In this document: positions 6,208-13,967 of the stretch, piece after piece
How positions within the stretch are numbered: the stretch's first letter is position 1
Layout of the letters: each line of letters starts with the position of its first letter
DNA from: Cupriavidus necator
GTDB taxonomy: Bacteria; Pseudomonadota; Gammaproteobacteria; Burkholderiales; Burkholderiaceae
Direction: 5' to 3'
Assembly (NCBI RefSeq): GCF_013141915.1
Contig: NZ_SROX01000010.1
Span: 124,001-188,000, forward strand
DNA length: 64,000 nucleotides
Program-made: the position numbers and the translations under genes
Notes under the pieces: model-generated
Told to the model about the DNA's origin: nothing
Database searches by the model: none
The model's input: the letters and a program-made list of their open reading frames with translations, nothing else

Positions 6208-6518
6208 GACATCTCGGGGGTGTGGAGTTGTGAGGAAAGGTGACGGCGGGGCGCAACGACATAACCACAGAGGCCGGCGCCTAGTGAATCGTAACCGCAA
6301 TTGTCACGCAAGATTTGGTGCGGAAACGAACACGGAATCCACCGATAAAAAGATAATCCCGCAACACCTCGGCACGCATGATGTGATGCCAACGGGCGAG
6401 AATATGCCGATCCCGCCGGATTTTATGCGCTCCGGCTTTCAACTTCTTTCAAAACGATACATTTTGTTACTGCCATGCCAGGGAGTTTCCCCCACAATGC
6501 ATTGACACACCCGCAGTT

Positions 6519-6810
6519 CGGGGCGTGGCGCCCCGATGAAAATGGCAGTTCAGACTAAAGGGGCGTGCTGAAGAAAGCCTTTTTGTAGTGTTTTCCGGCA
6601 GTAACCCGATTTTCCGATCCAGCATAAAGCAGCTGGACCGGAGCACCAGGAAGAGCCTTGCAGCGCGTGGCCTTTGCGGCCTGTAGGCGGATCCGTGGAG
6701 ATCCGTTGCGCCTTGCTTGTCGACCTGGACCGAACCCGTTCCTTCGAATTGACCCCTCGAAGGGATTTTCCCGTCCGCGCGGAGCCTCCCCGGCCCGCGC
6801 GCTTTTTTTT
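6519..6810 (+). ncRNA. Candidate structured non-coding RNA (5' end unknown)
   Basis: Consecutive stem-loops: 6519-6535 (CGGGGCG / CGCCCCG); 6613-6642 (TCCG-a-TCCAGC pairing with GCTGGA-c-CGGA); 6669-6681 (GGCC / GGCC); 6688-6705 (CGGATC / GATCCG) inside AGGCG / CGCCT arms at 6685-6713; 6741-6763 (CCTTCGA / TCGAAGG); and a GC-rich stem at 6777-6800 followed by eight T residues. The T tract fixes the direction as plus, and no protein-coding gene on that strand lies upstream to explain a terminator here. I could not match it to 6S RNA, 4.5S RNA, tmRNA or RNase P by their conserved sequences. The start given is the first hairpin, not a mapped 5' end. Confidence 0.4.
6777..6810 (+). terminator. 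Plus-strand intrinsic terminator
   Basis: Stem GCGCGG-a-GCC (6777-6786) pairs with GGC-CCGCGC (6792-6800), with one bulged A, followed by eight T residues (6803-6810). Confidence 0.7.
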
Positions 6811-6844: not shown

Positions 6845-6874
6845 AAAAAAGGCAGCCACGAGGCTGCCTTTTTT
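6845..6874. terminator. Terminator of the atp operon (bidirectional)
   Basis: A perfect inverted repeat: six A, GGCAGCC, loop ACGA, GGCTGCC, six T. It works in either direction and lies 47 bases beyond the atpC stop codon, so it should end the atp transcript. Confidence 0.85.
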
Positions 6875-13724: not shown

Positions 13725-13967
13725 GTCGATACGAACGGTATATTGCGAAATCTTCGGGCCGCGCGCCGCCACAGTCTGGCAAGCGCCCGGTACGCGTCTT
13801 GCATTGCCTTCGGCGGATTCGCCGGTCACCGCAATGCAAGCAGGGTTCAACCTTGACCGTGTCCGGAGTCAGCGCCATGAAACCCGCTGCATCCGCCACG
13901 GAAAACTCTTGATATTCCGTTTCGGTGCCACCACCTTTAGAGGAAGCACCATTTTCGGGCAGCCGAC

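Follow-up and report, generated by a model that had tools for sequence, protein, structure and literature searches.

The window analysed here is the whole 64,000-nucleotide stretch G000:C1:124001-188000 of a 6.97 Mb Cupriavidus necator genome. Between two minus-strand genes, encoding a CoA-binding-domain protein (PF13380) and AtpC, it contains what has the form of a free-standing plus-strand gene for a small RNA (sRNA), with a promoter of its own recognised by conservation and an intrinsic terminator, as is typical of base-pairing sRNAs (Table 1). The plus-strand terminator reported in the initial annotation is real: sequence and folding place its stem at 6776-6801 and a run of eight T residues at 6803-6810. 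Both flanking genes lie on the minus strand and the terminator therefore serves no plus-strand protein gene, as had been proposed. The annotation delimited its RNA as 6519-6810; an RNA gene does lie there, but the unit is longer, with a promoter from 6436 and transcription probably starting near 6505. When start and end are assigned by the same rule, predicted transcript length ranges from 262 to 390 nt across 58 Cupriavidus copies. The 6519-6810 segment folds at -121.6 kcal/mol compared with -105.8 +/- 5.1 for shuffled sequences (z -3.1), a value equalled by 1 of 200 shuffles. A simple terminator and promoter scanner returned neither the T8 terminator nor the sRNA promoter; the terminator stem is bulged and the promoter lacks a good -35 element.

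Table 1. Sequence features of the sRNA locus in window coordinates
Feature	Position	Strand	Basis
Four head-to-tail 10-bp half-sites of OmpR-family type, CTTTCAACTT CTTTCAAAAC GATACATTTT GTTACTGCCA	6436-6475	+	Conservation
-10 element, CACAAT	6493-6498	+	Spacing from GTTAC in 75 loci
Predicted sRNA transcript, ~305 nt	6505-6810	+	Start from -10 element, end from terminator
Conserved 5' element, GAAGAAAGCC	6570-6579	+	Each of 10 positions at least 90% conserved in genus
Second pairing segment, ACCCGTT, complementary to AACGGGT in first pilA codons	6734-6740	+	Sequences read by eye
Stem-loop 1, single-stranded loop AUUGACCCC at 6748-6756	6738-6766	+	Folds computed for 33 distinct core sequences
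Seed and extended pairing segment, UUGACCCCUCGAAGGGAUUUU, antisense to pilA leader	6749-6769	+	Invariant in 58/58 copies
Intrinsic terminator, loop with CCUCCCC, then T8	6776-6810	+	Sequence and folds
Neighbouring terminator-like repeat, outside the sRNA	6845-6874		Perfect 13-bp inverted repeat, A6/T6 ends

The inverted repeat beyond the sRNA is, from its sequence, probably the terminator of the atp operon. Elsewhere in the window, the Rfam Cupriavidus-1 RNA (RF02949) is matched on the minus strand at 13760-13840 (75.8 bits, 45.5 needed), some 36 bases ahead of the probable start codon of atpB (ATG 13724-13722).

Conservation, promoter and fold

A 411-base query recovers the sRNA gene in 58 of 60 Cupriavidus genomes, the two misses being genomes that are 54% and 78% complete, and in all 54 genus genomes of at least 90% completeness and at most 5% contamination. 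Every one of the 58 copies retains both the upstream block and the 3' block and lies beside atpC. The gene is single copy in its own genome, one genome (G029) carries two, and the plasmid records searched hold no match. A decayed mobile element, which the annotation had named as an outcome that would undo its proposal, is thus not indicated by the single copy and the constant atpC neighbour. Conservation is concentrated at the two ends of the unit. The upstream block, 6436-6509, is strongly conserved in the genus alignment, 6734-6782 and 6784-6801 are identical in 58 of 58 copies, and the middle of the gene drifts except for GAAGAAAGCC and part of one hairpin. The GAAGAAAGCC element is possibly an A-R-N stretch of the Hfq-binding kind, or else a second seed, and the RNA may depend on Hfq. 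A small protein is not favoured as the product: every position of the core is conserved, the copies in Ralstonia differ from it by single-base deletions, and length changes in the middle are not multiples of three.

The conserved promoter (6436-6498) lies just upstream of the sRNA gene. Its half-site block is strongly conserved in the 58 genus copies, with 6456-6461 and 6463-6473 invariant. The half-sites advance in 10-bp steps and end in GTTAC, which is followed by a CACAAT-like -10 element 22 nt later in 71 of 75 loci compared by means of a single expression and 23 nt later in two, the remaining two deviating slightly from that expression. This spacing is fixed across Cupriavidus, Ralstonia and the genome 'Burkholderiaceae bacterium PBA' (hereafter PBA), the half-sites of the latter two taking the form CTTGCA-N4-.TTGCA-N4-G..ACA.TTTGTTAC. 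Tandem 10-bp half-sites held at a fixed distance from the -10 element are the arrangement expected of OmpR-regulated promoters, and the half-sites resemble the OmpR direct-repeat motif GTTACAnnnnGTTACA quoted in PMC7315122.

A search of the own genome for the OmpR-like motif with at most one mismatch gives seven hits including the sRNA promoter, against five for the reversed pattern, and for this reason no regulon is claimed. Apart from the sRNA promoter, one hit is exact and five carry one mismatch. Two of the latter may be recorded: L375 (C47:119036) has several GTTAC/GTAAC repeats before a 363-residue ORF, and L374 (C45:86741) has an OmpR-like repeat about 800 bases before a flagellin-like ORF. 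In one Cupriavidus clade (L179; variants L163, L169 and L181), GAAACAAAATGTTTC or a variant of it stands about 25-50 nt before pilA and is close to the reverse complement of GATACATTTTGTTAC of the sRNA promoter; judged from this resemblance, the regulator of the sRNA promoter might act directly on pilA DNA in L179-type genomes.

Hairpins precede the terminator, as had been reported, but only the last two, 6738-6766 and the terminator itself, are conserved genus-wide, while the earlier ones change or vanish between clades. Stem-loop 1 and the C-rich-loop terminator recur in the folds of 33 distinct cores, with the loop AUUGACCCC showing small differences in a few. In the fold of the full-length transcript the loop of stem-loop 1 has an unpaired probability of 0.9-1.0, and the terminator presents a second C-rich loop (CCUCCCC). 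The description of the RNA as structured proves half right. The compensatory changes that were to support it are absent from the core, where 0 of 19 pairs changed on both sides among 18 sequences, a consequence of the core hardly varying. The middle hairpins show compensatory changes at 3/78, 5/66 and 7/77 pairs in three subsets and at 0/28 over all 58 copies, counts made without a shuffled control. With a near-invariant core and only scattered changes in the middle, covariation was rejected as proof of structure. What selection preserves, together with the promoter and terminator, is the sequence of the loop and of the flank adjoining it, as would be expected of an antisense sRNA.

Complementarity to pilin leaders

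Searched against its own genome, the core finds its best match other than the sRNA gene on a different contig (G000:C22), where the match runs antisense to the beginning of a gene for the type IV pilin PilA (PF00114 above cut-off). On the pilA mRNA, the complement of sRNA segment 6749-6769 falls in the Shine-Dalgarno region, over which the own sRNA and pilA can form 21 contiguous base pairs, with 7 bp more in codons 2-4. The locus thereby carries a conserved, accessible seed complementary to a ribosome-binding site encoded elsewhere, a second hallmark of base-pairing sRNAs. By coordinates, the core match is antisense to a pilin start in 25 of the 40 genus genomes compared, the own genome included. 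A complementary run of at least 19 (G-U allowed) is present in 26 of the 30 Cupriavidus pilins fetched first, the other four having runs of 9 (L157), 10 (L158), 16 (L163) and 9 (L182). L182 is a different pilin gene, and its genome also has a matching pilin, L377; L158, the one deviating MQRV-type pilA leader, comes from the 54%-complete genome G012, where no sRNA was found. Maximum runs in the controls were 13 in 900 shuffled leaders, 12 in 115 leaders of window ORFs, 12 in 29 Ralstonia pilins and 11 in 23 pilin-like genes of other genera, one of which is from the PBA genome. Duplex energies have a median of -47.6 for Cupriavidus pilins, compared with a mean of -22.6 for window leaders and -19.6 for shuffles (best -32.0), although some GC-rich window leaders also reach low values (best -38.7). 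For the own pair, taken as an 86-nt 3' form and 170 nt of pilA, the net cofold energy is -25.0 kcal/mol; 200 shuffles average -3.8 +/- 2.3 and reach -10.4 at best.

This complementarity extends across much of the genus, as counted from the one or two top-ranking pilin loci of each genome. An MQ(Q)RV-type pilA is present in 41 of 60 genomes; at least 19 of 22 positions pair in 40 of these, and the contiguous run is at least 19 in 36. Eleven further genomes have a different pilin whose leader holds the 7-base seed match GGGGTCA. The remaining eight (G005, G016, G020, G032, G034, G041, G043 and G048) yielded no matching pilin in their one or two top-ranking loci, although seven of them do have the sRNA. 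GGGGTCA is present in 37 of the 53 distinct pilin leaders from Cupriavidus, paralogous pilins included, and in the single PBA pilA leader, as opposed to none of 36 Ralstonia leaders, none of 55 other loci (up to two of them from a further PBA locus) and none of 165 window ORF leaders; starts in this set were chosen automatically, so that it includes misplaced leaders as well as pilin-like genes other than those of type IV pilins. Shared ancestry of the pilin leaders could explain part of the enrichment. Among 20 distinct pilA leaders the paired segment has 84.6% pairwise identity, compared with 42.3% in the 18 nt upstream. Departures from perfect pairing, collected from 10 distinct sequences, amount to 31 substitutions, of which 10 are kept by G-U pairing and 21 are broken. 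L158 accounts for 10 of the broken ones; without it 11 are broken and 9 kept, and about half of those 11 fall in the last three positions of the paired segment.

Distribution and comparison with known RNAs

In a set of 299 family genomes, the core is found in 16 Ralstonia genomes (g24) at 91-93% identity and, at 85% identity, in one g4 genome, PBA, and in all of these the promoter is also present. Among the other non-genus family genomes listed, no core match is better than E 0.004; the 19 genomes lacking any match do not appear by name in that list. A pattern with 21 fixed bases, searched exactly, returned 52 stretches among 84,980 species genomes, all of them from Cupriavidus, Ralstonia or Burkholderiaceae. 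In Ralstonia the promoter-core-terminator unit adjoins a DUF6600/FecR gene, and the approximately 1.5 kb inspected to each side of it holds no atpC. At the PBA locus the upstream gene is the one found in Ralstonia, while an atpC some 1.2 kb downstream resembles the Cupriavidus setting, and this mixture of neighbours indicates that the three sets of loci are probably orthologous. An order-wide model search of 399 genomes, a sample that may lack Ralstonia, gave strong matches in three own-genus genomes and weak ones in eight others (23.7-34.6 bits). These weak hits were not accepted as distant relatives, the five inspected matching mainly in the terminator. A stretch from another family (L363 of G531, 1431-1573) was kept as a lead: a similar stem carries the C-rich loop AAAUUCCCCC, a terminator is present, and an OmpR-like GCAACATTCT GTTACAGAAG repeat lies upstream. 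Its loop would match GGGGGAATTT of Ralstonia pilin leaders, and it is a possible distant relative.

The initial annotation regarded the RNA as a new candidate, and this view holds: the locus looks like an RNA gene, and the covariance-model search that had been suggested found no Rfam family in the region at the gathering threshold. At E values up to 10 there are 14 weak matches, none near threshold. Those to STnc50 (RF02059; 26.1 bits against 55) and anti-hemB (RF02837; 19.8 against 49.5) run across terminators. suhB/mmgR (RF00519) reaches 21.3 of the 41 bits needed and is alike in the shape of its terminator hairpin, T8 and a C-rich stretch. The OmpR-controlled enterobacterial sRNAs MicF and OmrA/OmrB place an sRNA between an envelope two-component system and repression of a surface structure; the regulatory logic is alike but the targets differ, sequences having been compared through Rfam only. 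The model of ncS025/NcS25 (RF02869) matches weakly but over its full length at 6735-6809 (16.6 bits against a gathering threshold of 46). Among the own-genus genomes searched only G009 and G037 match this model, elsewhere and below cut-off. NcS25 of Burkholderia, a betaproteobacterial sRNA, is described as pairing with the Shine-Dalgarno region of a porin mRNA (PMC10117139), a kind of pairing with a surface-protein mRNA that is also predicted for the Cupriavidus sRNA. NcS25 differs in sequence, neighbours and target, and was rejected as an orthologue, the five loci read in other genera differing in sequence and setting.

Two further RNAs were compared by description. S17 of Bordetella and other Betaproteobacteria is made as a long primary RNA, in which a short stretch ahead of the terminator is fully conserved, and its short form is generated by processing (PMC11722255). 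The Cupriavidus sRNA is likewise long with a conserved 3' segment before its terminator and by this analogy may possibly be processed from about 305 nt to an approximately 85-nt 3' form, although this is a guess. The conserved 27 nt of S17 are reported from Burkholderia pseudomallei and from another order, and in Bordetella S17 neighbours a glycosyltransferase gene and coq7 (PMC11722255), whereas the searches placed the Cupriavidus core in no genomes other than those of Cupriavidus and Ralstonia and a single related one. It has no convincing match in Burkholderia-type genomes and only weak matches in the 399 order genomes apart from the three of its own genus, and this narrow spread speaks against identity with S17 as described. 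The sX13 RNA of Xanthomonas has stable stem-loops whose C-rich loops pair with G-rich sites near gene starts and represses type IV pilus genes; its 4C/5C loops make short, Hfq-independent contacts with many 4G-motif genes (PMC3771888). Two C-rich loops are predicted in the Cupriavidus sRNA, where sX13 has several CCCC loops; the former differs in having one dominant 21-base pilin match and a conserved promoter of two-component type. The literature search found no paper on this sRNA or on any pilA-pairing sRNA in Cupriavidus or Ralstonia. It may be among the 35 sRNAs proposed for C. metallidurans CH34 (PMC7563307).

A model for pilin control and its alternatives

We consider it likely that the locus encodes a trans-acting sRNA, activated by an OmpR-type regulator, that blocks pilin translation in Cupriavidus. 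An OmpR-family response regulator would bind the four tandem half-sites (6436-6475) and activate a promoter with a weak -35 element, from which RNA polymerase would make an RNA of about 305 nt ending at the T8 terminator. Stem-loop 1 would present AUUGACCCC for pairing with the Shine-Dalgarno sequence GGGGUCAA of pilin mRNAs. On pilA, pairing would open the stem and extend to about 21 bp, with 7 bp more in the codons beyond the AUG. As the predicted duplex covers the ribosome site, pilin translation would stop and fewer type IV pili would be made while the regulator is active; repression, in preference to activation, is suggested by this geometry. Type IV pili power twitching and serve in attachment to surfaces and in DNA uptake, and their production may perhaps be turned down under cell-envelope stress.

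How far the sRNA is devoted to pilins is a separate question. A tentative reading, to which we give slightly less than even weight, is that it is a dedicated pilin sRNA whose invariant loop is recognised by several paralogous pilin mRNAs through their Shine-Dalgarno sites, letting an envelope signal of OmpR type shut off the whole pilin set, and that Ralstonia kept the loop while the pilin site was lost or replaced by another target. In Ralstonia the seed is unchanged, yet the best pilin leaders read CCGGGGGAATTTATG or similar and hold no seed match. Together with the Cupriavidus genomes for which no matching pilin was found, this indicates that the sRNA probably has other targets, at least in these genomes. 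Seed matches before ATG in 23 genomes yielded no clear gene start common between genomes among 30 of 38 matches, and a pattern scan of four Ralstonia genomes yielded none among 30 of 67.

The unchanged seed in Ralstonia and in gilardii-like genomes without a matching pilin found would also suit a C-rich-loop sRNA with a broad and mainly different target set, for which pilA is one Cupriavidus target among many and pilin control is not the conserved function. The second C-rich loop in the terminator fits such a role, and sX13 acts in this manner on its many 4G-motif targets (PMC3771888). We regard this reading as unlikely, however, as the pilA match, at roughly 21 bases, is much longer than a 4C/4G contact and is seen at 40 of 41 loci, and the scan of the four Ralstonia genomes revealed no clear common gene start among the 30 matches. 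It is considerably less probable still that the sRNA activates or stabilises pilA, or that it is itself titrated by a sponge-like pilA leader: long pairing could protect a 5' end, but a duplex over the Shine-Dalgarno region and flanking the AUG has the usual geometry of repression. That the conserved stretch is a mere 3' region of the atp operon or an extended terminator with no function of its own, as its place between atpC and the next gene, near the likely atp terminator and beside atpC in all 58 genus copies, might suggest, is largely contradicted by the atpC-free setting of the Ralstonia unit and by conservation that sits in the plus-strand promoter and loop, and can be given hardly any weight.

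Translational repression of pilin by the sRNA would give Cupriavidus, whose members are used in work on bioplastics and metals, a post-transcriptional pilin switch linked to envelope sensing, and such a claim is readily tested given how long and conserved the pairing is. In Ralstonia, a frozen seed with no pilin site to read would be a clean case of target change by an sRNA.

The Ralstonia sRNA loci (L122-L137) also carry a largely conserved 5' element around TTTGTGTCCAATTGTTGTGCGC, which is not seen in the Cupriavidus alignment and is perhaps a lineage-specific second seed.
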